Positions 1,999 through 34,066 of a stretch of 38,580 nucleotides of DNA are shown here, piece by piece. Every line of letters begins with the position of its first letter. Positions within the stretch are counted from its first letter, which is position 1. The DNA is from Candidatus Woesearchaeota archaeon (GTDB lineage Archaea; Nanobdellota; Nanobdellia; Woesearchaeales; WJIZ01): positions 70,600 to 109,179 of the forward strand of contig JAGVYS010000002.1 in the NCBI GenBank assembly GCA_018303125.1, read 5' to 3'. Both the position numbers and the translations under genes were made by a program. The notes under the pieces were generated by a model. That model searched no databases. It was not told the DNA's origin and saw only the letters and a list, made by a program, of their open reading frames with translations.

Positions 1999-3480
1999 TT
2001 AATCCATAGTAGCGTTATTTTTGCCAATTTGATGCTTTTTTTCTAATATGGCATTCGCCAGGTTCTGAGCTATAAGGTTATTCCCTTTTTTTGTAGCGTG
2101 CCCAAAATACCCGAATTCCCTGTCCAAAAAAACATCATCATAATTATAACCTTGAAAATTATCTTCATTGCTAACAATTAATACCTCCTTTATGCCTTCA
2201 AAAATGCTTTTTAGTGTATCAATTTTTAAGGTTGGATATTGCATTATTATGATTTGTCTGCCTTTAGTCATCTCGTGCATCTTTCTAAAATTTATTGCAG
2301 TCTTAATCCCCAAGTATTCTTCCCTAATATTCATTGAGAGTTTAAGCCATTTTTGCCCTTCAGTAGACATGTTTAGTTCAATATACTTGGCACCTATGTC
2401 TGAGTATACCCTTGCCATCATTGCCTTATTCTTTTTATATCCATTAGCGAATAACTTCTCCGCATATTCTGTCTGGTTTTGCCTAAGATAATGCCAGCCA
2501 AATTCTCTGTAAACAGATGCCCTGTCAGGAAACTTTTCTAGGGCTATGCTAAATAGGAAAAGAGCTACTTGCGATTTTTCTTTTTGATTTGTACTATCCA
2601 CAGTCTTGGCAAGTTCAATCAGAAGCCTTTCGTGCTTTGGGTCTATAGCGTCATAAGCGTTATCAAATTTGTCTAAGATTGCGATTGCATCTTTAGGCCT
2701 ATTTAGAGAGAAGTAGTCATTAGCCATTACCAAGTAAGCTCTTTTGTCGTGTGGAACGATCTCAATGTATTTTAGAAGATACTCTAGTGATTCTTCGTAC
2801 ATACTGTGTTTAAAATACTCTATACCTATTGCTTGTAAAGCATAAGCTGAATCATTATTATTACTGATTAACTTATTAAAATTATTTTTTGCAATATCTA
2901 ATTCTCCTTTATTGAGATAGGATACGCCCAAGTTGAATATAGATTCACTATCTCCTAAAAAATTCTTAACAACCGGTATAAAAATAGGCTCCGGTTTGTC
3001 TTTCTTTTCTATGTTTGAATTAAAATAGTGTTCTATAAGCTCATATAGCCTGAAATTTTTCAAAAATTCGTTCGCTGAAAAATATTTTGCAGAATTGTCA
3101 TGTACTAATTTTTCATTGACTTCGTCTGCCATACCCAACATAACAATAACAATATCTGGATTGTATTTAGGCAGGTTCTCTTCTAGTAAAGAAATTGCTT
3201 CAGAAGTATCTAGTCCTGCATGCCCTACTACAAACACATGCGCAGAGCGATTCGTGGCATTAGAAAGTATAACTTCAAGTTGCTCCGGCCAAGGATCTTC
3301 TCCTTCTATAGTCATTGAATCGCCTATAGCGAGTACATTCAAGTCTGTATCTTGGCCATATTTCATGTCATTTGAAAAATGCTGCATTTGAATCCTTGCG
3401 TAGCCGCTAAGTCTCATGCCAAATTCAAGAAGAAACAAGACAAGGAATATCCTGAACAATATAACTAAAATCTTTTTCAT
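1999..3480 (-). CDS. SGNH/GDSL-type hydrolase with internal TPR repeats, N-terminal signal/anchor
   Basis: N-terminal hydrophobic helix; GDS motif in 'LNVLAIGDSMTIEG'; TPR-like repeats 'IFNLGVSYLNKGELDIAKNNFNKLI', 'YALQAIGIEYFKHSMYEESLEYLLKYIE'; C-terminal 'GYFGHATKKGNNLIAQNL' like SGNH block V. Confidence 0.75.
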   Translation of the reverse strand: MKKILVILFRIFLVLFLLEFGMRLSGYARIQMQHFSNDMKYGQDTDLNVLAIGDSMTIEGEDPWPEQLEVILSNATNRSAHVFVVGHAGLDTSEAISLLEENLPKYNPDIVIVMLGMADEVNEKLVHDNSAKYFSANEFLKNFRLYELIEHYFNSNIEKKDKPEPIFIPVVKNFLGDSESIFNLGVSYLNKGELDIAKNNFNKLISNNNDSAYALQAIGIEYFKHSMYEESLEYLLKYIEIVPHDKRAYLVMANDYFSLNRPKDAIAILDKFDNAYDAIDPKHERLLIELAKTVDSTNQKEKSQVALFLFSIALEKFPDRASVYREFGWHYLRQNQTEYAEKLFANGYKKNKAMMARVYSDIGAKYIELNMSTEGQKWLKLSMNIREEYLGIKTAINFRKMHEMTKGRQIIIMQYPTLKIDTLKSIFEGIKEVLIVSNEDNFQGYNYDDVFLDREFGYFGHATKKGNNLIAQNLANAILEKKHQIGKNNATMD

Positions 3481-3506
3481 GATTATAGTAATATGATTTT
3501 AGTAAG

Positions 3507-3516
3507 TTATAAATAA
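3507..3516. promoter_or_regulatory. Central TATA-like element in 59-bp divergent intergenic region
   Basis: 'ttataaataa' about 29 nt upstream of the MBOAT ATG (3540) and about 30 nt upstream of the SGNH-TPR ATG (3480, minus). Confidence 0.5.
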
Positions 3517-3539
3517 ATGTTATGTAAAACAACTTGAAT

Positions 3540-4910
3540 ATGCTCTATCTTTTCCATAGTCAAGAGTTCATGCTCTTTTTTGTTGTTATTTTCGTAATAT
3601 ATTGGATTAGTAAGAGATTCAAGAATGCTGTTTTACTGATAGCCAGCTATATATTTTACGCAAGCTGGGATTGGAGATTCCTAAGTTTAATAGTGGCATT
3701 AACAGCAATAAATTATTTCTGTGGATTAAAGATAGAAGCCTCAAAACATAGGAAGGCGTATTTACTTATAGGTATAATATCGGGCATTTCCATCCTGGGA
3801 TTTTTCAAATATTTCAATTTCTTTGTGGAAAGCTTTGTTACGCTGCTTAATTTTTTCGGATTTGGGTTGAACTATAATGCATTGAATATTATATTGCCAA
3901 TTGGCATATCCTTCTATACCTTCCAGACATTAAGCTACACTATTGATGTCTACAGGAAAAAAATGTCTCCAGAAAAGAACATAATAAACTTTTCTCTTTT
4001 TGTATTTTATTTTCCACAGCTTATAGCAGGACCGATAGAAAGAGCCAAGGACTTGTTGCCTAGAATAAATTCTACAAAAAATATAAGGAATATCAATTTC
4101 AGAGATGGCTCTTATCTTTTCATATATGGCTTATTCAAAAAGGTGGTCATAGCCGATTCACTCGCTATAATTGTAGACAAGGTCTTTTCTATGCAGGACC
4201 CTACAGGCACACAGGTTATGATGGCAGCTTATGCTTTTGCCTTGCAGATATATTGTGATTTTTCAGGTTACTCAGATATGGCAAAAGGAATCTCGCATTT
4301 TTTTGGGATAGAGCTAAGCACAAATTTCAACCTTCCTTACCTATCAAGAACACCCTCAGAGTTCTGGAAGAGGTGGCACATTACACTCTCTTCATGGGTA
4401 AGGGATTACTTGTATATACCGATGGGTGGAAAAAATTCAAAATTTGCTGCACTTTTTTTTAGCATGCTATTAATGGGTCTTTGGCATGGTGCAGCTTGGC
4501 ACTTTGTACTTTGGGGACTTTACTGGTTCTTCGTAATTATGGCATACAGGATAATTAAGCCAAAGATAAATAGTCTAGCAACTAAAGTGCTTTCAACAAT
4601 AGTTATGTTTCATATAACTTCCTACAGCTGGATTTTATTCAGGGGAAGCGATTTCGGACAGATAATAAGCCTGACTTCCTCGCTTGCTTCTATAAATCTT
4701 ATCGGCATTCTTGACGCTTCTTTCTTCCCGCTTTATGCCGGAGCACTATTCCTGTTAGTTTATGAGGCTATACAGTATACAAAAAAAGACCAGTTATTCA
4801 TTGCAAAGAAAGGATTTTACCACCAGATGATTTTTTATTTGGTTTTGTTCTTTCTCTTTGTTGAGATAGGAAGCACTTCTAATGTAGCTTTTATCTATTT
4901 TCAGTTTTGA
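3540..4910 (+). CDS. MBOAT-family O-acyltransferase (AlgI-like)
   Basis: ORF track begins at TTG 3534; ATG at 3540 is more likely. Contains 'FYFPQLIAGPIERAKDLLPRI', 'CDFSGYSDMAKGISHFFGIEL', 'PYLSRTPSEFWKRWHITLSSWVRDYLYIPMGG' and 'GLWHGAAWHFVLWG', all MBOAT hallmarks. Confidence 0.95.
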   Translation: MLYLFHSQEFMLFFVVIFVIYWISKRFKNAVLLIASYIFYASWDWRFLSLIVALTAINYFCGLKIEASKHRKAYLLIGIISGISILGFFKYFNFFVESFVTLLNFFGFGLNYNALNIILPIGISFYTFQTLSYTIDVYRKKMSPEKNIINFSLFVFYFPQLIAGPIERAKDLLPRINSTKNIRNINFRDGSYLFIYGLFKKVVIADSLAIIVDKVFSMQDPTGTQVMMAAYAFALQIYCDFSGYSDMAKGISHFFGIELSTNFNLPYLSRTPSEFWKRWHITLSSWVRDYLYIPMGGKNSKFAALFFSMLLMGLWHGAAWHFVLWGLYWFFVIMAYRIIKPKINSLATKVLSTIVMFHITSYSWILFRGSDFGQIISLTSSLASINLIGILDASFFPLYAGALFLLVYEAIQYTKKDQLFIAKKGFYHQMIFYLVLFFLFVEIGSTSNVAFIYFQF

Positions 4911-6552
4911 CCGCTGAATTGGTTATATTGTAAACCAGGATATTTGGTGCTAACCTGTCAATTGGCTTATATTTCTGAAGCCAGTCAAAACAATTTGGAT
5001 ATTCTCCGTAATTATAAAGCTGAAACATACTGATTATTGTGATACCTTCCAATTCATGGCAGATTGGCTCCTGCTTACCGAATTTCTGTAATGAAGCATA
5101 GCTGCTGAATTCAAGAGGTGCATAAGTAAAGTTGTAATAGCTTAGGTCCTCTGTTCCATGATAGGCAATGTTTGGATTTATTATTCCTTTCGCATTAAGG
5201 TACGGCTTAATCCTGTCCGCCCCTTGCCCGAAATCACAGTCTCCATCCAATGATATTGTGCAGCCGTTATTCTGGCCGACAATCTCATTGTAGAAATAAA
5301 GGTATTCTGGGAAGCTTGTCAAAGGTACAATAGCGTATGCCAAAAGCAGTATAGCAGCTTTATAGTCTACCCTGAAAACATTAGCAGATCTTGAAATGAA
5401 AATGAAAACGAACGGGAAGACTGGAAGAAAATACCTGATTCCGCGGCAATAAGGTATAAGATTAAGTACCAAGAAAAAATAGACCAATGCAAAAATAATC
5501 CAATTTTCATCTTTCATTAACTTTAGTCTGCGGAGAGAGAAAAAAGCTAATCCTATCAACACTATGAAAACAATACTTGATTTAATGAAAAAAACAACAA
5601 AAGAGCTGTACCAGGGAGGAGAATTATGTATGCTCCCGGAAAAATAGCATGGTTCTGAAGGCCTTACAGCCTGTGAAATAAATCCCCTTACATAGTTGTA
5701 AGGCAGCGGAGAAGGCACGGCATCTATGCCAAATAAAACTATTCCAGGAAGTTTGCCCCTCATTTCAAAATAACCATCACGGTCAAGAAGAGTGTCTGAA
5801 TCAATGGATTTTCCAAGCGAGACGAAAGAGCCCTCAAAAAAATATATACAGTTAATAGTAACAATAATCACAAAAATATAAACCATGTAAGACTTGAAAA
5901 GGCTCATAATCCTAGATAGCTTGAATCTCTGATAATGAATCAAAAAAATCGATGTCATTACAAAAGGGATAATTATTACAGATGTGAATTTAGTTGATAA
6001 TGTTAATCCTGACACAACAGAAAGAAGAAAGAGCCTTTTTGCTGTTGGCATGTCCTTATACCACATGAATACAAAAAACGTGAGGAATATAAAGAAAGTC
6101 AGGCCTATATCCGGAGTGGAAAGCCTTGAGTGGCCTAGTATAACTGGATGGAATGCATAAAGAAATAGTGCAAATATAGCTGCCTTTTTTGAGTATATCC
6201 TCTTTGCGATGAAGTATATAAGCAACCCAAGCAATACAGATATAATCACGCTTGAGATACCTGCAAGCCTAAGAATAGTATAGGGCTCATATTTATTTCC
6301 GTATAGTAGTTTATGCGCAAAAGGCTCGTATGCCTGTGTTTCCGGGTATTCTAGGTCAAGAAACAGTAAAGGTATTGCAGATAGTATGTTGAGCAAAGGA
6401 GGATGAGCGATGCTCATATGCATGTTATGGTTAACTAGTATATTTGCCCCTCTTGCAATATTTAGTGGCTCATCTATTACTGGGCTCCTGTAAAAAATGC
6501 TTGAAGCTAAAAGTAGGATGAAAACAAATAGTATTGTCTTTTTCATCGGCAA
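4891..6552 (-). CDS. GT-C family (PMT/ArnT, GT39-like) polytopic membrane glycosyltransferase
   Basis: 553 aa with many TM helices; first loop 'DEPLNIARGANILVNHNMHMSIAHPPLLNILSAIPL' (acidic loop 1), 'GHSRLSTPDIGLTFF' PMT-type motif. 3' end overlaps the MBOAT gene by 20 bp. Confidence 0.82.
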   Translation of the reverse strand: MPMKKTILFVFILLLASSIFYRSPVIDEPLNIARGANILVNHNMHMSIAHPPLLNILSAIPLLFLDLEYPETQAYEPFAHKLLYGNKYEPYTILRLAGISSVIISVLLGLLIYFIAKRIYSKKAAIFALFLYAFHPVILGHSRLSTPDIGLTFFIFLTFFVFMWYKDMPTAKRLFLLSVVSGLTLSTKFTSVIIIPFVMTSIFLIHYQRFKLSRIMSLFKSYMVYIFVIIVTINCIYFFEGSFVSLGKSIDSDTLLDRDGYFEMRGKLPGIVLFGIDAVPSPLPYNYVRGFISQAVRPSEPCYFSGSIHNSPPWYSSFVVFFIKSSIVFIVLIGLAFFSLRRLKLMKDENWIIFALVYFFLVLNLIPYCRGIRYFLPVFPFVFIFISRSANVFRVDYKAAILLLAYAIVPLTSFPEYLYFYNEIVGQNNGCTISLDGDCDFGQGADRIKPYLNAKGIINPNIAYHGTEDLSYYNFTYAPLEFSSYASLQKFGKQEPICHELEGITIISMFQLYNYGEYPNCFDWLQKYKPIDRLAPNILVYNITNSAVKTENR

Positions 6553-6589
6553 TTAATGCCTATTGGATGCACTATAAAAATCTTTCATG

Positions 6590-8134
6590 TTAAGGCCCTA
6601 TAGTTGTGCTTATTCTGAAAGATCTGTTGGCGCCAATAAACTTAGCATCAGGCATTTTAAGTTCCTGGGCTGTAAAAAATTTTGCAGAAGGTATGTACCT
6701 AAATGAAAATTTGCCAACCCTATAAAGTCTAATCTCATTTTCAGAAGTTATGCTGTCTTCAACTTTTATGCCAGCCTTAAAATAAAACACACGGCAAAAG
6801 CTTATTTTAACAAGCCGTTTCTTTGTGATAAGCACATATTTCAGCATTTCTCTTAAAACCTTGCTGAATAAGCCAATAGATATGAGCCTCAATATTATGT
6901 GCTTGAAAACAGATGGGGTAATGGGCTTTATCCTGTAAAAAAGTCCGTTCACGGTTATACTGTCCTTTTCCACAGATATACTCCTGGTGTCGTCAAAATA
7001 GCTTGAGCATAACACTTTCTTTCCATTGACAAGATAACCGCAGTCGGAAATTACTTTTTCTCCGGAGTAATACCTATAAACGCCTCCTTTCTTAGTCCCT
7101 ACTATGAGATAATAATTCGCCCCTTTTCTCACATAAATTCCGGCACCGGGGAAATACTTTTCAAAACTTTCCATTTGGAAAGGTAATTTTGCTACTGCCT
7201 TTTTTCCTTTTAACATACCTGTCTTAAGATACTGGTGAACATACAATGGAAGGTACCTATTATCAAGGCAATCCAATCCCACTAAATCCCTAGACTCTTC
7301 TATAAATTTTAATATTGCCAAACTAAGGTGAGTTGAGCGCGCTGCAAAACCTGAGGGTACAAGATACTCAGTATCCCTTGCCGTATACTCTCCACCCGCA
7401 GAGCCGTTCGGATGCAGGAAATAACTTATAAATTCCACAGCGCGGTCTATTGCGTTGGGTATTTGGCTATTTCCTGTCTTGGCATACAGCTCAGACAAAA
7501 AGTCAATAGTATAGCTTAAGTATCCAACATCGCATCCTTCATATTCCGGAAACCATCCTTCATGATTCTGCGCCCTTAGGATAAGAGATAGCTTTTTATT
7601 CAATACATCCTTATAACACGGAAATTTCTCATTAACGCATGCTATGGCAAGGCATGCCATTGCTTCCTGATTTATGACTTTTGGTTCATGGTTTTTTGAG
7701 AGGTAATCTGCTGCTTTCCTCAGGACTTTTCCTATTCTTGCTCTTTGTTCAGGCTCAATTTCATCAAAAAGCAAATTAAAGGATTCTGAACAGGGATAGA
7801 TTGTCAACGAAGTGCCGATATAAGAGTGCTCGTTTGGATAATATTCGTCAAAACTGCCATCTTTTTTCTGTATTTTTTCAAGAAAAAGCAGCCCTGCTAT
7901 TATCCATTCTTTAATTCTTTTGTTTCCATAATACACATTTGAGGCAAATTTTTTCTTGTAAAGAATTGAAAGCGCATATACGGCTCCCTGCACGCTTGCA
8001 TAAGGAACATCTGTCTTCCTATATTGCCAATGCTCCCTGTCAAAACATCCATATGTGGGGGAGAACTGCGTCCTGTCCTGAAGGCTCAAAAGGGAGGGCA
8101 TTGCTGAAATTGCCATAGACAAAAAGCGGTTCAT
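6590..8134 (-). CDS. Heparinase II/III-like or other alpha/alpha-toroid glycan-acting protein (function uncertain)
   Basis: 514 aa; N-terminal part rich in helical toroid-like repeats ('YGCFDREHWQYRKTDVPYASVQGAVYALSILY', 'QEAMACLAIACVNEKF'); C-terminal half beta-rich ('GAGIYVRKGANYYLIVGTKKGGVYRYYSGEKVISDCGYLVNGKKV'). Confidence 0.55.
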   Translation of the reverse strand: MNRFLSMAISAMPSLLSLQDRTQFSPTYGCFDREHWQYRKTDVPYASVQGAVYALSILYKKKFASNVYYGNKRIKEWIIAGLLFLEKIQKKDGSFDEYYPNEHSYIGTSLTIYPCSESFNLLFDEIEPEQRARIGKVLRKAADYLSKNHEPKVINQEAMACLAIACVNEKFPCYKDVLNKKLSLILRAQNHEGWFPEYEGCDVGYLSYTIDFLSELYAKTGNSQIPNAIDRAVEFISYFLHPNGSAGGEYTARDTEYLVPSGFAARSTHLSLAILKFIEESRDLVGLDCLDNRYLPLYVHQYLKTGMLKGKKAVAKLPFQMESFEKYFPGAGIYVRKGANYYLIVGTKKGGVYRYYSGEKVISDCGYLVNGKKVLCSSYFDDTRSISVEKDSITVNGLFYRIKPITPSVFKHIILRLISIGLFSKVLREMLKYVLITKKRLVKISFCRVFYFKAGIKVEDSITSENEIRLYRVGKFSFRYIPSAKFFTAQELKMPDAKFIGANRSFRISTTIGP

Positions 8135-9042
8135 AGAGTATCCCTACGTAGCTTAGAGATAACAGAAACAAGCAAGCCGAAGCTAAAAATCTGCAACCCT
8201 ACAACAAGCAACACTACCGATAGGATTATGAGAGGAAGGCGGTTCCCTATTATTCCTGTACTGGCTTTTAGATAAATGAGATATGCTGCAACAATCAAGC
8301 CTGAGAAGGATATTAAAAATCCAGATACTCCAAATACCTTCATTGGCCGGTACATGTAGGCAAACCTGAAAGCTGTTGTAAAAAATTGGATAAAATCTTT
8401 TCCAATCTTAAGCTTGGATTTTCCAGCCTTCCTATCCTTAAATGTTATAGGTATCTCTTCTATTTTGTATCCCCTAAAATAGGCCTCACAGACAAATTCC
8501 ATGTTGAATGCGAAGCCGTCTGCATCTATGTGCAGCTTTTTCCAAATGTCCTTTCTGAAAGCTCTGTACCCATTTGTGACATCCGAAACATGCGTTCCTG
8601 CAAAAAAACTTGCCACCATATTCGCTCCCCTGCTGATTATCCTTCTCTTTAATGGCCAGTTAATTATTTTCGAATCTTTGAGGTATCTGCTCCCTATAAC
8701 AATGTCAGCCCCATTCTTAATTTTATTGACGAATTGCGGGATATAGTCGGGATTATGTGTATTGTCGCCTTCCATGCTGATTATTATATCGTGCTTAGAC
8801 TCAGAAAACCCCTTTCTTCTTGCCGAGCCTACTCCTTGCTTTCTCTCTCGCACAAACAAGCGGATATTGCCATATTTCTTGCTCAACTCCTGCACGACAC
8901 TCCATGTTTTGTCAGGGCTGTTGTCATCTATTACAATTATTTCCCCGTCAATTTTGTTTTCCTTAAGAACTTCTTCTATTCGAGGTATGAGAAGGGGAAT
9001 ATTTTCCTTTTCGTTGTATGTGGGAATTACGATTGATACCAT
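8131..9042 (-). CDS. Polyprenyl-phosphate hexosyltransferase (DPM-like GT2) with C-terminal TM helices
   Basis: 'VSIVIPTYNEKENIPLLIPRIEEVL...IIVIDDNSPDKTWSVVQELSKKYGNIRLFVRERKQGVGSARRKGF', 'GADIVIGSRYL', 'SDVTNGYRAFRKDIW'; two hydrophobic C-terminal helices. Confidence 0.92.
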   Translation of the reverse strand: MVSIVIPTYNEKENIPLLIPRIEEVLKENKIDGEIIVIDDNSPDKTWSVVQELSKKYGNIRLFVRERKQGVGSARRKGFSESKHDIIISMEGDNTHNPDYIPQFVNKIKNGADIVIGSRYLKDSKIINWPLKRRIISRGANMVASFFAGTHVSDVTNGYRAFRKDIWKKLHIDADGFAFNMEFVCEAYFRGYKIEEIPITFKDRKAGKSKLKIGKDFIQFFTTAFRFAYMYRPMKVFGVSGFLISFSGLIVAAYLIYLKASTGIIGNRLPLIILSVVLLVVGLQIFSFGLLVSVISKLRRDTL

Positions 9043-10335
9043 CTACCAGCACACACCATTATAGTTGGCTTTTGTCTCATTTGTTATCCTAACCAAGTCT
9101 ATAACTATTTTTCCGCTTGGAAGCGACTCTATAACTGGCTTGAATTCATCTATTTTATTTTTTACAATTATAACATCGCAATCCAAAGCCGTATTGATAT
9201 CGTTCGAGAGCATGTCTCCCAGGTAAGGTTTCTCCTCAAATATGCCCTTATTGACGCCAAAAAGCCTGGACTTGGATATATGCGGGTCGTATACACGAAT
9301 GTGCTTGCCCATGGATTTTAGCCTGTCAATAATGGATACAATTGCACTAGACCTAAGGTCATCTGTATTTTCCTTAAAGCTCAACCCCAATACACCTATG
9401 CGCTTTTTTCCTGTATGCTCGACAAGACTGACTATATGGTCTATATGCTCTTGGTTACTTTCATCTATTGCTTCCAGCACAGGTGCCCTTATATTCCTTT
9501 TCCTTGCTTCGAAAAGCATTGCCTTTATATCCTTAGTCAGGCATGAACCACCAAAAGGAACTCCGGGAGTTAGATAATAAGATGAAATGTTCAATTCCTT
9601 GTCCATACAAAATATATTCATAAGTTCATGGCTGTCAATACCCAGAGACTTAGAAAGCCTGCCAATCTCATTGGCAAATGAAACTTTCAGACCATGGAAA
9701 GAATTGTTCACATATTTTATCATTTCTCCTATTTTCACTGATGTCCTGACAATTTCTGTGCCTTTGTATAACTCAGACAACAAATCACCGGATTTTTTGT
9801 CGTACTGTCCTATTACAGTTACAGGTGGATGAAAAAAATCATGCATGCCTCTCCCTTCCCTTAAGAACTCAGGGTTATGACATACTCCAAAATCCTTTCC
9901 AGCCTTCTTGCCTGACTCCTCCAGTATAGGGATTATTATTGATTCTATTGTTCCGGGAAAAAGCGTGCTCTTGAATGCGATAACATGGTAGCCATTCTTT
10001 TTCTTTAAGCCTGTTGATATATCCTTACAAACTGATTCTGTATGTGTGAGGTCTATTTCGCCGCTTTCCTTGGAAGGAGTGCCTACACATACTAAGCTTA
10101 TATCAGATTCTATAACTGCCTTAGGCGCATCTGCAGACACATTAAGCTTGCCTTCTTTTATGGCCTTAGAAATATAATCTTGCATCCCTGGCTCAAACAC
10201 AGGGCTTTCTCCTCTCTTAAGCAACGACAGCTTCTCATCATTTACATCAACACCAATTATAGAATGGCCTTGAGAGAAATGTCCTGCTGCCAGAACACAA
10301 CCAACATATCCCATCCCGAAAATACTGATGTGCAT
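9043..10335 (-). CDS. Nucleotide-sugar 6-dehydrogenase, closest in pattern to GDP-mannose 6-dehydrogenase (AlgD-like)
   Basis: Start revised to ATG at 10335 (MHISIFGMGYVGCVLAAG). 'SLVCVGTPSKESGEIDLTHTESVCKDI', 'KKAGKDFGVCHNPEFLREG', 'IGEMIKYVNNSFHGLKVSFANEIG', 'GVPFGGSCLTKDIKAM' (catalytic Cys), 'IGVLGLSFKENTDDLRSS' follow AlgD more closely than UDP-Glc DH, by memory. Confidence 0.85.
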   Translation of the reverse strand: MHISIFGMGYVGCVLAAGHFSQGHSIIGVDVNDEKLSLLKRGESPVFEPGMQDYISKAIKEGKLNVSADAPKAVIESDISLVCVGTPSKESGEIDLTHTESVCKDISTGLKKKNGYHVIAFKSTLFPGTIESIIIPILEESGKKAGKDFGVCHNPEFLREGRGMHDFFHPPVTVIGQYDKKSGDLLSELYKGTEIVRTSVKIGEMIKYVNNSFHGLKVSFANEIGRLSKSLGIDSHELMNIFCMDKELNISSYYLTPGVPFGGSCLTKDIKAMLFEARKRNIRAPVLEAIDESNQEHIDHIVSLVEHTGKKRIGVLGLSFKENTDDLRSSAIVSIIDRLKSMGKHIRVYDPHISKSRLFGVNKGIFEEKPYLGDMLSNDINTALDCDVIIVKNKIDEFKPVIESLPSGKIVIDLVRITNETKANYNGVCW

Positions 10336-10361: not shown

Positions 10362-11765
10362 TCAAGTTTTCGGATAGATTCTATTTGCGCTAAGCTTTTT
10401 ATTTTTTGCTTCAAACACAGAAATGCTGCCAAAACAGCTCTTTCTGCTATTCTGTATACGAAGTAAGAAGGAAAACATCCCTGTAAACTTGTTTTCATGC
10501 CTTTTCCTGTGAAGGTAGCTTGAGCCTTCGCTCTTCTTGTATTGCAAAAACATCTGTAAAGCCTCATCGAAGAAAGGCGGAATTAGAAAATATCTTTTCT
10601 CAGTTATGTCTCTAAATCCTGCATCAGACAAAAGCCGCTTTATTGCCTTTGATTTTACCGGCTTGTACGGGCCGAAAAAAGCATAAATCCCTGTTTTCCT
10701 TATATCATCCTTGAATAGCGCAATTATAGTCTTGTAGAAAAGATTGAAGAGCAATGACGACCTTCTTGATATTATAACCATAGTGCCGCCCTCTTTCAAT
10801 GTTTCACGAGATTGCTTGAAAAGATTAGAAAGTTGTTTCCTGGAAAGGCGTTCTGCTTTGTAGAGCATTGTAATTGTTGGCACTGTAGAATGCAGGGATT
10901 TCTTATTTTCTTCATAGATTTTGTATTCCACATTCTGATTAAGAGTATTCTGCCTAACTGCTTCCTTGGTGTACTCGCTTGTCTCCTGGCAAATGTCCAG
11001 GCATATTATCCTCTCTTTTGGAAATTCCTTAAGATATGCTCCATCATATGACATAATATCCAGAATCGGGCCTTTTTTGCCTTGTATTGCATCTCTGACA
11101 AGCTTTTTCTCGAAGTTATTGCTTATGTCCATCTCCTTTCCTAGAAAGGTCTTTCTGCAATAGTATTTCTGGTATTCGACAAGATGCCCAAAAGACCATT
11201 TTTCTGGATTGTATGAGTAAGTGATATTATCAAACTCCTTAAACCCCTCATTATGTATTATTTCGCCAACATCTCTCCTTAGTACTGGCTTTGTGGTTTT
11301 GTATATCTCTTCAGGATAGCCTAAGCATACGAAACAGCATATCTCATATCTCTTTGGTATATTGAGCACTTTCTTTATCTTTGAGTCTGCACCATAGCTG
11401 TTCATGGCCAATGCCCCTACGCCATAATAAGTTGCAGCAAGCAGAATATTCTGGACAGCCATGCTTGACGCTTGTATGGCTTCCTTGTAGCTCCATCCAT
11501 CATATAAAATCACTATAACAACTGGCGCCCTCATTATTAAGGTTGAAGAATAGCACTGCGAAACAAGCTTTTCTTTGACTGATTTGCTTTTAACAACAAC
11601 AAACTGCCAGAGCTGCTGATTGCATGATGTTGGAGCGTAAACCCCAAGCTGTAGAATCTCCTTTACAAGCTCGTCAGGCACGTCCTTCTCTGTAAACCTC
11701 CTGACGCTTTTTCTGCCCTTTATGATGTCTATGAAATCCTTATTCATTGCTTCGCATAACCTCAT
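10362..11765 (-). CDS. Fusion: N-terminal nitroreductase domain + C-terminal SAM-methyltransferase-like domain
   Basis: N-term 'DFIDIIKGRKSVRRFTEKDVPDELVKEILQLGVYAPTSCNQQLWQFVVV' (nitroreductase); C-term 'KKGPILDIMSYDGAYLKEFPKERIICLDICQE...LKEGGTMVIISRRSS...KRLLSDAGFRDITEKRYFL' (class I methyltransferase-like with degenerate motif I). Confidence 0.78.
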   Translation of the reverse strand: MRLCEAMNKDFIDIIKGRKSVRRFTEKDVPDELVKEILQLGVYAPTSCNQQLWQFVVVKSKSVKEKLVSQCYSSTLIMRAPVVIVILYDGWSYKEAIQASSMAVQNILLAATYYGVGALAMNSYGADSKIKKVLNIPKRYEICCFVCLGYPEEIYKTTKPVLRRDVGEIIHNEGFKEFDNITYSYNPEKWSFGHLVEYQKYYCRKTFLGKEMDISNNFEKKLVRDAIQGKKGPILDIMSYDGAYLKEFPKERIICLDICQETSEYTKEAVRQNTLNQNVEYKIYEENKKSLHSTVPTITMLYKAERLSRKQLSNLFKQSRETLKEGGTMVIISRRSSLLFNLFYKTIIALFKDDIRKTGIYAFFGPYKPVKSKAIKRLLSDAGFRDITEKRYFLIPPFFDEALQMFLQYKKSEGSSYLHRKRHENKFTGMFSFLLRIQNSRKSCFGSISVFEAKNKKLSANRIYPKT

Positions 11766-14311: not shown

Positions 14312-15802
14312 ATGGTAGATGTTGTTCTTATAAACCCGAGATATCAGTATGTTGACTTCGGTGATGATTTAGGCATTCACCAGCCTCTGGGACTCATGCA
14401 ACTCGGCAGCCATCTGATACATAATGGTATTTCTGCAAAGCTGATTGACGCAAATGCCTCGGGTATACAAAATGATTCCGTGGCAGATGCTATCTCTAAG
14501 CATGATGCAAAGCTTGCGCTTATTACAGTCCCGACAATCCTTTTCCCACAAGCAGTAAAGATTGCAAATGATATAAAGGAAAAGTACCCTGGAATGCTTG
14601 TAATAGCCGGGGGAGCGCATTTCATGTCAATGCCTCACACGCTCAAGGGAACTCCATTTGATGCTGCATTTGGGGCAGCTGAAGCAGATACTATAATAGT
14701 CAAGTTGGCTAAAGAAGCAGTAGAGAACAACAAAATTGATTATTCTACGCCCGGCCTGATATATTATGAGGATGAGAAGTTCGTAAGAAATCCTAACCCT
14801 CCTCTTATACCTAAAGACCAGTTCGACAGTATCCCGCACCCTTACAAATACGCCAATGAGATGGGGTTCGACATGTCTCTCTACAAGGGTTATGCGAACA
14901 CTGCAGTATATGGGAAAGGGCATTATGCCAGTCTTATAACTAGCAGAGGCTGTGTGTATAAGTGCACTTTCTGCCTCGAGGCAGAAGTTTTTGGCAGGAC
15001 ACATAGGGCACATTCTGCTGAATACGTCTATAATATGATGCTGGATATGGAGAAGCTAGGAGCAAAGGAGTTCTATTTCATGGACAGCGAATGGTCCATA
15101 CCGAGAAGAAGAAACATGGAATTCATGCAGATGATAATTAATGACAAGAAAGACTGGAGATGGGAATGCCTTTCAAGGTCCACTGATTTCAATGATAACA
15201 CAAGGGACTACCCAAAAACAATGAAAAAAGCAGGATGCATATCAGTAGGAATGGGTGTTGAAAGTGGTAGTGATGAAACGCTCAAAAGAATAAAAAAAGA
15301 TGCTACAAAAGATGATTACAGGAAAGCATTCAAGATATTGAGAGAGTGCGGGATAGAAAGAAGAGGCTCTTTCATGATGGGATATCCATGGGAAACTGCA
15401 AAGGACCTTTACGATACTTTGAAATTTGCCATAGAGCTTGACCCTGATTTTGTCTATTTCCAGCCTTATGTTCCTTACATGAACACCCCCCTTTATGAGG
15501 AAGCCAAAAGATTCGTAAAGATAGATGCAGCAACTGATTTCGACAAATGGTGGCAGCATTCCATCGTAGGCGGCAAGGTAATAATGAGTACCATAGAACT
15601 CAGTTCTGAGGACATAACAAGGATAAATGCAGAGGCATATAAGAAGTTCTATTACAGGCCATCATACATAATGAAGCAGATATTGAGAAGTTGGGACAAC
15701 CCATACAGGCTAAAAGTAATGGCAAAGAATGGCATCACCTTGATGAAACAAATAATCAAGAGGACAAGGATTGAGAACCAGGCTGCACCTGAGATAGTCT
15801 AG
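14312..15802 (+). CDS. B12-binding-domain radical SAM protein (BchE/P-methylase-like family)
   Basis: N-terminal 'VDVVLINPRYQYVDFGDDLGIHQPLGLMQLGSHLIHNG' (B12-binding fold), CxxxCxxC in 'SRGCVYKCTFCLEAEVFG', 'GCISVGMGVESGSDETLKRIKKDATKDDYRKAFKILRECGIERRGSFMMGYPWET'. Confidence 0.92.
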   Translation: MVDVVLINPRYQYVDFGDDLGIHQPLGLMQLGSHLIHNGISAKLIDANASGIQNDSVADAISKHDAKLALITVPTILFPQAVKIANDIKEKYPGMLVIAGGAHFMSMPHTLKGTPFDAAFGAAEADTIIVKLAKEAVENNKIDYSTPGLIYYEDEKFVRNPNPPLIPKDQFDSIPHPYKYANEMGFDMSLYKGYANTAVYGKGHYASLITSRGCVYKCTFCLEAEVFGRTHRAHSAEYVYNMMLDMEKLGAKEFYFMDSEWSIPRRRNMEFMQMIINDKKDWRWECLSRSTDFNDNTRDYPKTMKKAGCISVGMGVESGSDETLKRIKKDATKDDYRKAFKILRECGIERRGSFMMGYPWETAKDLYDTLKFAIELDPDFVYFQPYVPYMNTPLYEEAKRFVKIDAATDFDKWWQHSIVGGKVIMSTIELSSEDITRINAEAYKKFYYRPSYIMKQILRSWDNPYRLKVMAKNGITLMKQIIKRTRIENQAAPEIV

Positions 15803-16577
15803 CCATATCAGACATCGTTGTAAGTTTATATCCTTCTGATTTAAGAAAGAAAATTGTTTTCTCAAGCGTTCTGCGTGCTTTCTTCTGCCTGAATCTATAC
15901 CACAAGCTAAGAAGTATGCCGCTTTTTCCACTCTTTCTTGCAACAAGGTCAAAAGGGTGCATATACATGACCAGCATATTTGGTTTTTTTGACATTTTAA
16001 AGAGAAGCCTAAACACAGGGAAGCTGATAAAGTTCATCCATAATAATCCCATAGGTATCCTTATGAAAGGAATTTGTGACACAGGTATTTCTATCAATTT
16101 GCCTATCTTGAAAGGCTCTGCACCTATAGAGGCATTTGAATAGCGACCCGGTAGAGTACCTTTTACAAGAGAAGAGTCATAAAAAAAGCCAGAGCTGGAA
16201 ATGGCATCAAGATGTTCCTTGCCTATCCTGAACTGCGGCGCCCTAAACCCTAGAAGCTCTGTTTCGAGTTCTTTTGCAAATAAATCCCTGCAAGCTACAA
16301 TATCTGAGATGAACATTGTCTTTGTCATTTGCAAAAGCGAGGAATGATTTAATCCATGCGATGCTATCTCATGCCCTTGTTTCTTAATATCAAGTATATT
16401 TTTCTTGTATTTTGGAAGGAGATTTCCTGAAACAAAAAAAGTTGCCTTAACCTTGTTTTTTCTGAATAAGTTCATGATGTAAGGTAGCTCTTCTTCTATT
16501 CCTTTATTTACAGAGTCAGCTTTTCTCCTTCCTCCCCAGTCGGTTTCTACATCAACTGTTAAAAGAGCATGCTTCAA
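15756..16577 (-). CDS. Polysaccharide deacetylase (NodB homology domain)
   Basis: 'ALLTVDVETDWGG' (motif 1), 'KVKATFFVSGNLL', 'GHEIASHGLNHSSL' (metal-binding His), 'LLGFRAPQFRIG' (motif 3). 47-bp antisense overlap with the radical SAM gene end. Confidence 0.9.
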   Translation of the reverse strand: MKHALLTVDVETDWGGRRKADSVNKGIEEELPYIMNLFRKNKVKATFFVSGNLLPKYKKNILDIKKQGHEIASHGLNHSSLLQMTKTMFISDIVACRDLFAKELETELLGFRAPQFRIGKEHLDAISSSGFFYDSSLVKGTLPGRYSNASIGAEPFKIGKLIEIPVSQIPFIRIPMGLLWMNFISFPVFRLLFKMSKKPNMLVMYMHPFDLVARKSGKSGILLSLWYRFRQKKARRTLEKTIFFLKSEGYKLTTMSDMARLSQVQPGSQSLSS

Positions 16578-18728: not shown

Positions 18729-19659
18729 TTTTGTTCCATTCAACTGTATTTGATATGCCCTCTTTCAATGAAACCCATTTATCATGCCCGAGTATTGATT
18801 TTGCCTTCGATATGTCTGCTGGGTTTTCCTTAATCTCTCCTTTTATTTCTTCCATATGTTTAACTATGGCTTTCTTGCCTGTGGCAGACTCAAGCAGGCT
18901 TATAAGCCTGTTTATTGTAACTTCTTCTATGGTTGACACGTTTATTGTCTCTCCAACCGCATTATTTGCTTCAGATGCCTTTACAGTGCACTCAACAGCA
19001 TCTCCAACAAAAGTAAAGTTCCTCTTCTGCTCTCCAGAGCCATATACTTCTATTGGCATAGAGTTCATAATCCTGTAAATAAATTTAGGTATGACAGCAG
19101 CATGCTCTATAGTGCCCAACTGCCTTGGACCATAAATGCTGAAATATCTCAGGTTTACAGTTTCAATGCCGTAGAGCTCATTGTAGACATTGGCATAATG
19201 CTCGCTTGCTAGCTTTCCCACACCATATGGGTGGGTGGGGCTCAAGATGGAATCTTCCATCCTTGGCATGGCTTTGGATGAGCCATACACAGAGGAGCTT
19301 GAGATGTTAACAACCTTGCTTACATTATTCTTCCTTGATGCTTCCAGTACGTTAAGTGTCCCGGTTATGTTAACTTCATTTGCCAAAAGTGGCTCATTTA
19401 TCGACTTTACTGCCCTGTTCATGGCAGCAAGGTGGAAAACTATGTCCACATCTTTAAAATATCCAAAAATCTTCTTATATGAAGTTATATCTGCCTCAAT
19501 TACCTCAATATCTTTTGATTTAAGAACAGGGACATTATTCCTTGTGATACTTAAGTTATCAATGACAGATACATTATTCCTTAATTCAGTAAGCCTTTCT
19601 GCCAGATGGCTCCCTATAAAACCTGCTCCTCCTGTCACCAATGCTCTTTTTTCTTTCAT
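18718..19659 (-). CDS. Extended-SDR NAD-dependent sugar epimerase (UDP-hexose(NAc/uronate) 4-epimerase-like)
   Basis: 'RALVTGGAGFIGSHLAERL', 'VFHLAAMNRAVKSINEPLLANEVNITGTLNVLEA', 'YGVGKLASE', 'LRYFSIYGPRQ'. Confidence 0.88.
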   Translation of the reverse strand: MKEKRALVTGGAGFIGSHLAERLTELRNNVSVIDNLSITRNNVPVLKSKDIEVIEADITSYKKIFGYFKDVDIVFHLAAMNRAVKSINEPLLANEVNITGTLNVLEASRKNNVSKVVNISSSSVYGSSKAMPRMEDSILSPTHPYGVGKLASEHYANVYNELYGIETVNLRYFSIYGPRQLGTIEHAAVIPKFIYRIMNSMPIEVYGSGEQKRNFTFVGDAVECTVKASEANNAVGETINVSTIEEVTINRLISLLESATGKKAIVKHMEEIKGEIKENPADISKAKSILGHDKWVSLKEGISNTVEWNKNEL

Positions 19660-21545
19660 ATTAAAGTATTAATCTTCTCCTGCCTTATGTAAATTTTGTG
19701 CCAGAGCTCAAATGTCAACACGCTCCAAAGCTGCCTGCCATAGAAAAGAGGAGAGTTATTGTATCTTTCCATTATCTTCTCAATGCCTTTCTGCTTGAAG
19801 TATCCTGAGCCGTTTCCTAGTCCGTGAAAAAAACTTTTTAAATCCCGTGTCATCCATTCATCCATTGGTACATAGAACCTCTGTTTTTTCCTTTTTATTG
19901 TATCATGTGGCAAATATTTTTTCATCGCTCTCCTGAGTATGTATTTTTCCCTGAAATTGTGGAGTCTTAGAGAGGGCTGCATTTTGAATGACAATTCAAC
20001 TATCCTGTAATCAAGGAAGGGCACTCTTGCCTCCAATGAATGTGCCATGCACATCTTGTCATTTTTCATCAGGAATTGGTCTGGAAGCAATGTCTTGACA
20101 TCTGCCTCCTGTAGCTGGTTCAAATGGGGAGCAGTATTGCTGAAATATTGCCTAAATTCCAGAGCTAAATCGTATGAGGAGTTTTCTTGGATTATGTCTT
20201 CTGCTTCCAGCTTGTTGAATATTGAAACAAATTCAAGATATGATTTTGGCCTGTCATCAAGGCTTTTTATCACGGATAATGCCCTTTTTTTGCCCTCCTC
20301 CCCTATTGCTTTGCTATACTTAAAAAACCCGTTAAGCAGCGTGTAAGGCATGAATTTGAAAGATGAAAGCATTGTTCTGTGGAAAGGTAGCCATTTAATC
20401 CTATCCATGTGAGTCAGGAACTTGTACTGCTCGTAACCTGCAAATATCTCATCAGAGCCATCACCTGTAAGTATCACAGTGGAGGTATCTTTTGCTTTCT
20501 CTGATAATATTTTGATTGGTATAAATGCCGGGTCTGATATAGGCTCATCAGAATGCCAAACCACATCAGGCAAAGAGTTTATTATGCCTGCATCAAGCTG
20601 GAATGATTTATGGTTGGTGGAGAAATGTTCTGCAGTCTTCTCGGCAAAGTTTATCTCGTCTTCGCTATGGCCAAATCCAACAGAATATGTCTGAATTTTT
20701 GAAGAATCAGAATTCAATTTCCTTATATTGTGGACTAAGGCAAGTATTGAGCCAGAGTCTATCCCTCCGCTCAGAAATATTCCCACTGGCCTTTCTGATA
20801 CAAGCCGTTTCTCAACAGAATCTTTCAAAAGGCTTTCAAGCTGTTTTTCATAGTATATGGTGCTTTTTTTCTCAATCACGGTACTGATATCCCAGTATCT
20901 TGTTGATTTCATCTCGCTATTTTTCAGGTCAAATTGCATTGTATGGCCTGGCAAGAGGCGAAATATGCTCTCAAAGATTGTTTCGCGCCCACTTGCATAT
21001 CCAAGCGAAACATATCTGCGAAATGCATTTTTGTTGACTTTCCTTTCTATTTCCCTGTTTTCCATGATTGCCTTTATCTCAGATGCAAACATGAAAATCC
21101 CGTCCTTCAGATAGTAATATAGTGGCTTTATGCCAAGCCTGTCCCTTGCAAGAAAAAGCCTCTTTTTGCCTGAATCATAAATAGCAAAAGAGAAGAAACC
21201 GTTAAACAGCTTTACGCAGTTATCCCCATATTCCTCATATGAATGGAGTATCACCTCAGTGTCGGTATCGCTTTCAAACCTATGCTTTTTTGATTGAAGG
21301 TCCTGCCTTATCTCTTTATAATTGAATATTTCGCCACCAAAAATTATGCACATATCCCTATTCTCGTTGAATATAGGCTGCTTTCCTCTCTCAGAAAGGT
21401 CAATGATGCTGAGTCTTTTGTGACCCAAGGAAACATATTTATCAGCAAATGTGCCCTGTTGGTCCGGGCCCCTATGATGCATGCTTGACATTGCTTTTTT
21501 CAGCAAAGATAGGTCATCCCAGTTAAATCCTATGATGCCGCACAT
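19656..21545 (-). CDS. Glutamine-dependent asparagine synthase-like amidotransferase (AsnB family)
   Basis: Starts MCGIIGFNWDD (N-terminal nucleophile Cys2); 'MHHRGPDQQGTF', 'IFLSGGIDSGSILAL' PP-loop, 'ILTGDGSDEIFAGYEQYK'. Confidence 0.92.
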   Translation of the reverse strand: MCGIIGFNWDDLSLLKKAMSSMHHRGPDQQGTFADKYVSLGHKRLSIIDLSERGKQPIFNENRDMCIIFGGEIFNYKEIRQDLQSKKHRFESDTDTEVILHSYEEYGDNCVKLFNGFFSFAIYDSGKKRLFLARDRLGIKPLYYYLKDGIFMFASEIKAIMENREIERKVNKNAFRRYVSLGYASGRETIFESIFRLLPGHTMQFDLKNSEMKSTRYWDISTVIEKKSTIYYEKQLESLLKDSVEKRLVSERPVGIFLSGGIDSGSILALVHNIRKLNSDSSKIQTYSVGFGHSEDEINFAEKTAEHFSTNHKSFQLDAGIINSLPDVVWHSDEPISDPAFIPIKILSEKAKDTSTVILTGDGSDEIFAGYEQYKFLTHMDRIKWLPFHRTMLSSFKFMPYTLLNGFFKYSKAIGEEGKKRALSVIKSLDDRPKSYLEFVSIFNKLEAEDIIQENSSYDLALEFRQYFSNTAPHLNQLQEADVKTLLPDQFLMKNDKMCMAHSLEARVPFLDYRIVELSFKMQPSLRLHNFREKYILRRAMKKYLPHDTIKRKKQRFYVPMDEWMTRDLKSFFHGLGNGSGYFKQKGIEKIMERYNNSPLFYGRQLWSVLTFELWHKIYIRQEKINTLI

Positions 21546-27277: not shown

Positions 27278-29110
27278 CTATTGTACCTTTAAGGCTATAA
27301 GCGTCTTTCCCTGATAGAGTACTCCAAAAAACCCTGAATTAAGCATTTCCTGAAGCCTTTGGTTTGTCAGATTTGCTCCGTGCCTTGCTACTGCCCTTTG
27401 GTCTACAATAACAACAGGATAATCGTTGGAGGCAAGCCACCTCTGCATAGACTCTGGCGATTGGTTTATGGCTGTTTCCCTGAATTCCTTCTCTCCAGGG
27501 CACCATGGGCAGGTGAACATGTCAAAGCCAAGCACATAATTGTTGTCTGCAAAGGTAAAGACATGTGTATTCTGTGGCAGGCTTGCCGTTACTTGGGCAT
27601 ATTCTGCCACTTCATCAAAAGAGTTCCAGCCGAGCCCAGGTGGCCAAGTGCTCGTATTCAGCGTGAATTTCTGCTGGGTTGATGTAAAAATAGTCCCAAC
27701 AATAACAACTCCTATGATAAGGAACTTGTATTTTGCAAAAAGCCTGTAAAGGAATACTGTACCTAATGCAGCCATTATTGAGCCGAACAACGCAAAAAGC
27801 ATCCAGAACCTGAATGAGAAAAAGCCAAATGGAAGGTTAAAGGTAAGGCTATTTAAGCCAAGGAAAGTAAGTAACGCCCATAACAAGGCAGTGAATTTCC
27901 ATGACTCCTTCCTGAAATCCCTTATTGCTATAAATGTTGCCGCAACCCCCACCACTATTAGTATTGATATGACTATGCCTATGCCTATCGGGTTGGTGAA
28001 AAGCCCTTGAGGCTGGGCATAAACTATATCATTAAAGGTATATGCCCTTGTTGCACTCCCGCTACCTGGAGGGAATATAGTCTTGGCCATAGAATAAAGC
28101 TTGGCAAAGATGTTTGAGCCTGATGATGCGACATCTGCTATTTTCTCTGGTGCTCCGCTTGGAAATATGTCTTTATACCTTGTAGCCCACCAAATCATTG
28201 CTAACAAATATCCTGAGATTATTGCAGTTGCGGATTCCCACTTAATCCTTTTTTCAGCTATGCACTTTATGATAAAATAGACAAAGTAGAGTACGAGGAA
28301 CTTAAGTGGCTTTGTTGGCTGCACAAACCATGTGCTGCATACCATTATAGCAGTAGGTATAATCCATCTTCTGTCTTTGCTTATCATCTCCAACCCGTAA
28401 AGTGAGACTATGAAAAGCGCCATGACAAGTGTCTGTGCCCATATAAAATGACTAAGGTATGCAGGGAATGAAAATAGGAAAAATGAAGAGAGCAATGCTA
28501 TTTCCTTGCTTGACGTGAATTGGTGGACGAAGAAATAGAAGAATATGATGCTTAGCGCTATTATTAGGTTATTGAAGAACTTAAGTGTCCATTGGAGAGA
28601 TGGAGAAGTTTGGTGGAGTATGCCGAACAATACATCGTATGCCGGTGGATAAGGGTCTATATACTGTGCAGGAGTTGGACCTTTAATTGATTTCTCTGTT
28701 GCAACTAGCTTTATTCCAGTGGCATGATTCCATGGGTCATCATCCTCAAGCCAGGGATAGCTGAATGCGCCCTTGTTAAACAAGAGCAATAGGATAATAG
28801 CAAGAACTATTGCAGAGATGGCAAATAGGTCTGATTTCTTTATGCTTATTTTAGGTATTGTAAACTTGCTTCTGTTCTTTATTAGATAGTAAGCTGGCCC
28901 TGCCAATGATAATATAAGAAATATCCACCATTCCAAAGGGATTCCTATAATGCTTAAAAGCGTGGTCAAGAATGATAAAACGCCCAAACCTATGGCAACA
29001 CGCATAACTGTCCTTTCAATAAAACTCTCCTTATAGCCAAAAAACATTGTGGCCGAGAAGCCCAATCCGTAGGTGTATACGAAGAACAACAATATCGTTA
29101 TAATGCTCAT
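27278..29110 (-). CDS. Large polytopic GT-C/STT3-like membrane protein
   Basis: 610 aa, about 12 TM helices; first extracytoplasmic loop 'PWLEDDDPWNHATGIKLVATEKSIKGPTPAQYIDPYPPAYDVLFG' resembles STT3/AglB loop 1; soluble C-terminal tail; no WWDYG motif found. Confidence 0.6.
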   Translation of the reverse strand: MSIITILLFFVYTYGLGFSATMFFGYKESFIERTVMRVAIGLGVLSFLTTLLSIIGIPLEWWIFLILSLAGPAYYLIKNRSKFTIPKISIKKSDLFAISAIVLAIILLLLFNKGAFSYPWLEDDDPWNHATGIKLVATEKSIKGPTPAQYIDPYPPAYDVLFGILHQTSPSLQWTLKFFNNLIIALSIIFFYFFVHQFTSSKEIALLSSFFLFSFPAYLSHFIWAQTLVMALFIVSLYGLEMISKDRRWIIPTAIMVCSTWFVQPTKPLKFLVLYFVYFIIKCIAEKRIKWESATAIISGYLLAMIWWATRYKDIFPSGAPEKIADVASSGSNIFAKLYSMAKTIFPPGSGSATRAYTFNDIVYAQPQGLFTNPIGIGIVISILIVVGVAATFIAIRDFRKESWKFTALLWALLTFLGLNSLTFNLPFGFFSFRFWMLFALFGSIMAALGTVFLYRLFAKYKFLIIGVVIVGTIFTSTQQKFTLNTSTWPPGLGWNSFDEVAEYAQVTASLPQNTHVFTFADNNYVLGFDMFTCPWCPGEKEFRETAINQSPESMQRWLASNDYPVVIVDQRAVARHGANLTNQRLQEMLNSGFFGVLYQGKTLIALKVQ

Positions 29111-32638: not shown

Positions 32639-34066
32639 ATGACAAAACAAAGACAACTACGGACAAGAATCATAGAACCGAACCAGAATATATCTTTTCC
32701 GGTTGGGACTGCCAAGGCAGTCCAAAAATATAGCGAGAAGCTGGATTTTGAGGATATTTTCTCCAGGTTCAAGAAACGAGGCACAGGCATAAGCAAGCTC
32801 ATAGAAGCACTGCTTACCTATAAGCTGACCGAGAATCAAAGCATATCATGAGCAAGTGGCTGGATAAACCGGCCTGCTGTTCTTGAGCAGTTCTCATTAA
32901 ATTCTTTTGAGGAGCGTACCTTGTTTCGCGTGCTTGAGATTATTGGCGATAACTATGAGGAGATAATTCAACTCGTGCAAGACCAGCTCTTTTCCAAATA
33001 TGACTTCCCACATACAGATGTGAACCTGGACTGGACAAGCTTTGTGCTTTGGGGGAAGAAAGCTGAGCTTGGCGAGTATGGATACAGCCGTGGCCATCGG
33101 CCTGACAAGAAACAAATCACTGTTGGCATCTCCGAGATAAGCTCACCGGTGAAGATACCGATTGGCCTTACTATCCGTGTGGGAAACATCAATGACCAGA
33201 CTCATTTCAGGCAGACTTTCCTACAGGTCTGCGGGAGGCTAAGGGAAGGCTCACGGGTTGTCTTTGACAAGGGCGGCCAGAGTAAAGACAACCTTGATCT
33301 TGTGCTTGCGCACAAGATGAAGTATCTCTCAGCAAAAAAGCTCAATAAGAACGACGATGCACGTATCAGAAGGTATGTCAAATCTGCTGGCAAGCTGGTT
33401 GAGCCTGGCATCTATGGCGAGATTATCGAATACCCAAGCAGATACGATTATTTCTTCTTCTCCGAAAAACTCAAGCGGGACCAGATAGAGGCAAAGCTTC
33501 GCATGGCAGAGCGGAAGCTTGCTGAAGCACAAGAGATAGAGTCTGCATTAAGCCGTGGAAAGCCGTTACTGAAGCGATTCATGATAAACAATCCGCTGGT
33601 TGACATCAAGTACACCTTCCAGACAAAGCTCAGCAAACTTACTGAGAATCAAGCCAGAGAGCTGGTGCAGAGCGCTTCAATCAACGGGAGAGAGGGTTTT
33701 TTCTGCCTTGTTTCAAGCGAGAAATTGACACTTCAGGAAGCGCTCAAAATCTATCGCATGAAAGACTCAATCGAGAAAATCTTTCAATCGCTAAAGAACG
33801 ATATCGATATCAAGCCGCTCAGAGTATGGACGACAAAAAGCCTGTGCGGAGCAATTCTCATCGGCTTTCTGGCACAACTTATTATATCGCTGATGCGATA
33901 TGATTATGAAGAACTCAGCAATGTTGCGCCGAAATTCATCAAAATCAGCCTAGCCAATTTGACAGTTACGGTAGTTTATGAGAAAAACAGATGGAAACAC
34001 GAGATTTTCTCCAATTTTGACCCACTAAACACCCTGATTTTAACCAAGAAAGCAGTCGAAACATAA
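32639..34066 (+). pseudogene. IS1634-family-like DDE transposase, interrupted by a single in-frame TGA (32849-32851)
   Basis: ORFs 32639-32851 and 32921-34066 are in the same frame. Translation across the stop reads 'LTENQSIS*ASGWINRPAVLEQFSLNSFEERTLFRVLEIIGDNYEE'. Downstream 'YGYSRGHRPDKKQITVGIS', 'FDKGGQSKDN', 'YRMKDSIEKIFQSLKND' are IS1634-type. Confidence 0.88.

Follow-up and report, generated by a model that had tools for sequence, protein, structure and literature searches.

Closest Described Systems and the Locus Studied

The GDP-mannose dehydrogenase group is marked by the residues Arg122, Leu126, Cys213, His217 and Ala263, and His217 contacts the 2-OH of mannose (PMC4794789). Among SGNH enzymes, PatB1 is an O-acetyltransferase that makes no use of the block III Asn (SGNH review, PMC9487903). 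In dermatan sulfate epimerase, an enzyme with an alpha/alpha-toroid and a beta-sandwich, His205 serves as the catalytic His. The collection of papers that was searched contained none naming both Woesearchaeota and MBOAT. Here, we describe an interval of about 8.3 kb (positions 1999–10335) in a window of 38,580 nucleotides taken from a 109 kb contig of the 1.35 Mb genome of a Candidatus Woesearchaeota archaeon, a member of the DPANN archaea. We propose, with a probability of about 0.6, that two separately conserved modules meet here in a larger Woesearchaeal surface-glycan island: one for cytoplasmic uronate synthesis, comprising a dehydrogenase, a GT2 glycosyltransferase and a toroid protein, and one for extracytoplasmic O-acylation, comprising an MBOAT and an SGNH protein with TPRs.

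Protein families, the clade of the dehydrogenase, the fold of the toroid protein, the architecture of the SGNH/TPR protein and gene linkage were computed. The dehydrogenase, MBOAT, SGNH/TPR and toroid proteins, named in an earlier note on this DNA, are all encoded by intact open reading frames at the coordinates given there.

Linkage in Related Genomes

Linkage was compared in 99 relatives, those of the same order being named as Woesearchaeota where identifiable. Comparison genomes and loci carry G and L numbers (G055 and G062 match JAGVXP010000020 and JACPBN010000034), and G000 denotes the window genome's own copy in the counts of the MBOAT pair. The toroid, MBOAT and SGNH/TPR proteins were present in 8, 14 and 9 of these relatives, respectively. 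The dehydrogenase, GT2 and toroid genes were collinear in the window, G055 and L061, with 54–60% identity and an adjoining nitroreductase gene; the stretches read in G055 and L061 lacked an MBOAT gene. Adjacent MBOAT and SGNH/TPR genes were found in G000, G035, G021 and G069, the last three being relatives that have no toroid gene. In G016, the dehydrogenase was present without the toroid protein or the MBOAT. The quartet of dehydrogenase, MBOAT, SGNH and toroid genes was found in none of the relatives examined and is together in the window only. Conserved linkage, which the earlier note had named as a check, holds for each module (two other genomes for the first, three for the second) and fails for the quartet.

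It should be noted that L061 (LBZW01000015.1) is filed as Nomurabacteria, yet shares the dehydrogenase–GT2–toroid order with the window at 51–56% identity, which points to gene transfer or a mis-binned contig.

The Toroid Protein

The protein encoded at 6590–8134 (minus strand) had been likened to heparinase II/III or alginate lyases. No Hepar_II_III or Alginate_lyase match was obtained in Pfam, the only hit being a marginal Pec_lyase (22.3 bits against a cut-off of 22), and a PDB sequence search with this protein returned no match. The predicted fold is nevertheless one of uronate polysaccharide lyases and epimerases, so the check that the earlier note had set for this protein was passed. An AlphaFold model built with 44 sequences was a confident alpha/alpha-toroid with an antiparallel beta-sandwich (mean pLDDT 93.3), and the best Foldseek matches (E about 2e-8) were dermatan sulfate epimerase 1, GAGases, PL33, PL8 and PL17 lyases, and heparinases; almost all of the top matches were uronate lyases or dermatan sulfate epimerase. 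Judging by this model, we assign the uronate lyase/dermatan sulfate epimerase fold with confidence.

A scan of 84,980 genomes yielded 56 relatives; they come from archaea and from bacteria of many phyla and make up an unnamed family. In a weak profile alignment (E 0.27), the invariant Asn155 and the following Gln or His156 coincide with Asn-His in dermatan sulfate epimerase. Position 156 is His in half of the family and Gln in the other half, to which the window protein belongs. Tyr205 is also invariant and lies about 50 residues after Asn155/Gln156, a spacing that, in our reading of the sequences, parallels that of Tyr261 after His205 in the epimerase. The conserved acidic residues Glu97, Glu102, Glu192, Glu197 and Asp202 are explained by neither an epimerase nor a lyase reading.

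The direction of the chemistry has to be weighed here. That the protein is a lyase or hydrolase degrading a uronate glycan, and not a maturing epimerase, is a real possibility to which we give somewhat less than even odds: most of its structural neighbours (GAGase, PL33, PL8, PL17, heparinases) are lyases, and the position of the epimerase's catalytic His is taken by Gln. On the other hand, no signal peptide is visible in 6590–8134, and the gene stands mostly beside a GT2 gene in biosynthetic clusters of many phyla, where a degradative enzyme is less expected. An MBOAT gene was near in 1 of 55 neighbourhoods.

Of the 55 toroid loci, 11 from various phyla also encode a nitroreductase-family protein close by (L061, L062, L064, L066, L068, L069, L071, L072, L096, L097 and L113). 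In the window, the nitroreductase gene (10362–11765, minus strand) lies immediately upstream of the dehydrogenase gene in the same orientation, and its product is fused to a methyltransferase-like domain.

The Dehydrogenase

The gene at 9043–10335 (minus strand) encodes a protein with the three UDPG_MGDP_dh domains of Pfam (3e-53, 1e-25 and 5e-17). Its start codon is right, since AlgD residue 1 falls on the ATG at 10335 when the two proteins are aligned. By a wide margin, its best PDB sequence match is AlgD (1mfz), which aligns from end to end, the C-terminal GxCW included, and scores 411.8 bits; the runner-up is a UDP-glucose dehydrogenase (UGDH) with 242 bits. In a tree of 46 proteins, AlgD is joined in one clade (support 97/89) by the window dehydrogenase and those of L061, G055 and G016, and UGDH-type paralogues of the same order fall outside it. 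The earlier identification as AlgD-like is thus borne out, also by the phylogeny that had been named beforehand as a check. Both motifs on which that identification drew, GGSCL and NPEFLRE, are present; since NPEFLRE is also frequent in UGDHs, GGSCL alone is informative.

Furthermore, His217 is retained in the clade of the window protein, its place being taken by Leu in UGDHs and by Arg in UDP-ManNAc dehydrogenases. The same genome encodes a separate UGDH on contig C41 (31% identical to the window dehydrogenase), and the window also encodes a TviB-like dehydrogenase (DH2), so 9043–10335 is not the housekeeping UGDH. A UGDH identity was ruled out by the score gap, the tree and His217. A phosphomannomutase/phosphoglucomutase-family mutase and a mannose-1-P guanylyltransferase-like protein are encoded in the genome as well.

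It is unlikely that the enzyme takes another NDP-sugar (e.g., UDP-glucose or another NDP-manno sugar), so that the uronic acid would not be mannuronate. Its divergence from known GDP-mannose dehydrogenases at four of the five group residues speaks for this, as does its best NCBIfam equivalog, the UDP-Glc dehydrogenase AglM, although that score is far below the cut-off (293 vs. 670 bits). In addition, the G055 gene adjoins PfkB-kinase and HAD/nucleotidyltransferase genes resembling an NDP-heptose pathway. Placement in the AlgD clade with a wide score gap, the conserved His217 and the presence of two further dehydrogenases in the genome speak against it. Based on the sequence comparisons, the protein is best described as AlgD-type, with GDP-mannose as a likely though not certain substrate, because the clade and His217 agree with it and the other four group residues do not.

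The genes beside the GDP-mannose-dehydrogenase-type gene of G055 (L056:6629–8591) encode a PfkB kinase and a HAD/nucleotidyltransferase that are HldE-like and suggest an NDP-heptose pathway.

The MBOAT and the SGNH/TPR Protein

The MBOAT gene (3534–4910) is on the plus strand, opposite to the other genes of the interval, and is divergent from the SGNH/TPR gene (1999–3480, minus strand) across a gap of 53 bases. Its product matches Pfam MBOAT (PF03062) with 95.4 bits against a cut-off of 27 (5e-27) and carries AlgI-style motifs, one of 23 residues and the other WHGAAW, with the His of WHG at position 318. It is therefore AlgI-like, as had been claimed, and is predicted to be an AlgI/PatA-like acyl-export protein.

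The SGNH/TPR protein matches several TPR models of Pfam above their cut-offs and Lipase_GDSL_2 just under the cut-off (30.2 vs. 32.9 bits, 7.6e-7). A membrane helix is followed by GDS (Ser55), Gly89, GMAD, the TPRs and the C-terminal Asp453…GlyHis461. About seven TPRs are thus inserted between SGNH blocks III and V, an architecture shared by the homologues. Ser55, Gly89, Asp453 and His461 (blocks I, II and V) are invariant among full-length homologues; the Asp-His spacing is 8, where the classic value is 3. The oxyanion Asn of block III is absent, the sequence being GMAD and not GxND. The protein is membrane-anchored and extracytoplasmic, and we predict that it serves as the glycan O-acyltransferase partner of the MBOAT. 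An SGNH protein with TPRs had been proposed in place of AlgJ/AlgX and AlgK; both parts were found, and the AlgJ/AlgX type was not. In AlgJ/AlgX, the order is permuted with Asp-His before Ser, whereas Ser comes first in 1999–3480, which therefore does not belong to that family.

A new observation concerns the 18 SGNH/TPR proteins compared. All seven that are linked to an MBOAT have GDS and lack the block III Asn, and all 11 unlinked ones have GES and GxND. That PatB1 does without this Asn fits a role of the MBOAT-linked branch in acyl transfer. SGNH proteins with internal TPRs also occur in G012, G015, G021, G035, G042, G046, G069, G118, G174, G192, G208 and G222; a search of plasmids for the SGNH/TPR protein gave no match.

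It is quite unlikely that the two proteins serve D-alanylation of the DltB/DltD kind, or the acylation of lipids, and have nothing to do with the uronate glycan. DltB is indeed the best NCBIfam match of the MBOAT (TIGR04091), and other MBOATs in relatives adjoin DUF1574/DltD-like proteins. However, the MBOAT has AlgI-type motifs and is 41% identical to the MBOAT of a Loktanella cluster bearing AlgF, against 27% to DltB, and Pfam does not identify the SGNH protein as a DltD. A DltB/DltA assignment was rejected on scores, the DltB match reaching 136.6 bits against a cut-off of 375 and the best DltA candidate in the genome 116 against 560.

Weighing of the Two-Module Reading

The earlier note had seen in these genes the logic of one O-acetylated, alginate-like uronate polymer. 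A true archaeal alginate-like system, in which all of these proteins would make, trim and acetylate a single mannuronate polymer in the manner of Pseudomonas, is very unlikely. An AlgD-type dehydrogenase and an AlgI-type MBOAT do lie within one 8 kb stretch, and in some bacteria "alginate lyase family" proteins accompany GDP-Man-dehydrogenase-like genes, in Loktanella together with an MBOAT and AlgF. However, the quartet is not conserved in the relatives examined, the SGNH residues do not follow the permuted order of AlgJ/AlgX and the window transferases are of GT-C and AglJ-like types, with no Alg8-type synthase recognised among them. Alg8/Alg44, AlgG, AlgK, AlgX and AlgE were not recognised in the window; the genome-wide search covered PF16822 (the AlgX family) and gave no match, and since control genomes gave none either, absence is not shown by it. 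The parts act like steps of alginate synthesis, and a single alginate-like pathway is not supported. No alginate-specific part was detected. A surface glycan with uronate and O-acyl groups can fairly be inferred, but the term "alginate-like gene logic" goes too far.

Several points weigh against the two-module reading itself. Modules 1 and 2 are linked in the window genome only. The dehydrogenase has Lys for Arg122, Phe for Leu126, Asn for Cys213 and Pro for Ala263, and the two bacterial relatives checked (Deinococcus and Shinella) retain Arg122, Leu126, His217 and Ala263. Gln156 of the toroid protein stands at the catalytic-His position of dermatan sulfate epimerase. The single-sequence fold of the SGNH/TPR protein reached a pLDDT of 53, too low for its SGNH part to be relied on. 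Finally, the correlation of GDS without Asn and GES with GxND reflects one evolutionary split: a single change in the tree of SGNH/TPR proteins accounts for it, and the pattern therefore distinguishes a single subfamily and does not count as evidence several times over.

Proposed Pathway

Based on the two-module reading, we suggest the following pathway, for which we infer what the substrates and the acyl group are, which way the toroid chemistry runs and that both modules act on one glycan. Module 1 (9043–10335, 8131–9042 and 6590–8134, reading leftwards) would be cytoplasmic. The AlgD-type dehydrogenase probably converts GDP-mannose to GDP-mannuronate. The GT2 enzyme, of the AglJ/polyprenyl-phosphate sugar transferase type (8131–9042, minus strand) with C-terminal membrane helices, probably transfers the sugar to a dolichyl-phosphate-type carrier or a lipid-linked glycan. 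The toroid/sandwich enzyme would act on the uronate residue, C5-epimerisation being more likely than cleavage because the cluster is biosynthetic and no signal peptide is visible. Module 2 (3534–4910 and 1999–3480) would work at the membrane, where the MBOAT may take up an acyl group (probably acetyl) in the cytoplasm and hand it to the SGNH/TPR protein, which faces outward. Its Ser-His-Asp site would then transfer the group onto the glycan, and the TPRs may hold the glycan or partner proteins, making the protein a one-chain analogue of the AlgK–AlgX pair.

The most specific version is offered tentatively and with rather low confidence: an O-acylated, mannuronate-containing Woesearchaeal surface glycan made by an AlgD-type dehydrogenase, a cytoplasmic uronate epimerase of the toroid family and a one-polypeptide SGNH/internal-TPR acyltransferase that replaces AlgK–AlgX. 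If true, DPANN archaea would make O-acylated uronate glycans with enzymes that have until now been described chiefly from bacteria. Two unnamed, testable enzyme families are brought out, the toroid uronate-modifying family and the SGNH/TPR family. The former, found in glycan-synthesis clusters of many phyla, may clarify the relation of uronate lyases and epimerases; the latter, with its Asn-less MBOAT-linked branch, offers a natural comparison of acyltransferase and esterase.

Gene Content of the Glycan Island

The entire window is a glycan island that encodes a flippase, several GT2 and GT-C transferases and NDP-sugar SDRs, and further the TviB-like dehydrogenase, an asparagine-synthase-type amidotransferase and a polysaccharide deacetylase. 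Two genes of the interval had not been mentioned before: that of the GT2 enzyme, and that of a PMT/GT39-like GT-C membrane glycosyltransferase (4891–6552, minus strand), which lies tail to tail with the MBOAT gene. The glycosyltransferases of the window look to be of dolichyl-phosphate/GT-C type. Many island genes are 50–62% identical to genes found elsewhere in the same order, which makes a mis-binned window unlikely.

The amidotransferase and deacetylase genes (19656–21545 and 15756–16577) resemble those of bacterial exosortase (XrtA) exopolysaccharide proteins (TIGR03108 and TIGR03006, both below cut-off). A 610-residue protein encoded at 27278–29110 has no Pfam match and is 39% identical to the product of a gene in the equivalent glycan cluster of G042. 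Two DDE transposase genes were found, one at 32921–34066, about 4.5 kb inside the window, and one at 37660–38436, the right-most gene of the window.

Comparison with Known Systems

With AlgD of Pseudomonas aeruginosa (PDB 1mfz/1mv8), the window dehydrogenase shares full-length homology, a supported clade, the catalytic Cys in GGSCL, His217 and the C-terminal Trp. It differs from AlgD at positions 122, 126, 213 and 263, as given above, and in being archaeal and encoded beside GT2 and toroid genes. The toroid protein shares its toroid and sandwich fold with dermatan sulfate epimerase 1 and the toroid uronate lyases (PL8, PL17, PL33 and heparinases) and, with the epimerase, an Asn ahead of the catalytic-His position and an invariant Tyr about 50 residues on. 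Unlike those enzymes, to which it is about 10% identical, it is shorter, shows no visible signal peptide, carries Gln for His and is encoded in glycan-synthesis clusters. As in the pairs AlgI–AlgJ/AlgX, PatA–PatB and BcPatA1–PatB1, a membrane MBOAT adjoins a membrane-anchored, outward-facing SGNH protein; unlike in those pairs, the SGNH protein of the window has the classic residue order, TPRs inside the SGNH domain and a lost oxyanion-hole Asn. The AlgK–AlgX complex (PMC9734138) likewise combines a TPR scaffold with an SGNH O-acetyltransferase-like domain, whereas the window protein, without demonstrated sequence kinship to it and in a setting with no outer membrane, unites both in one polypeptide.

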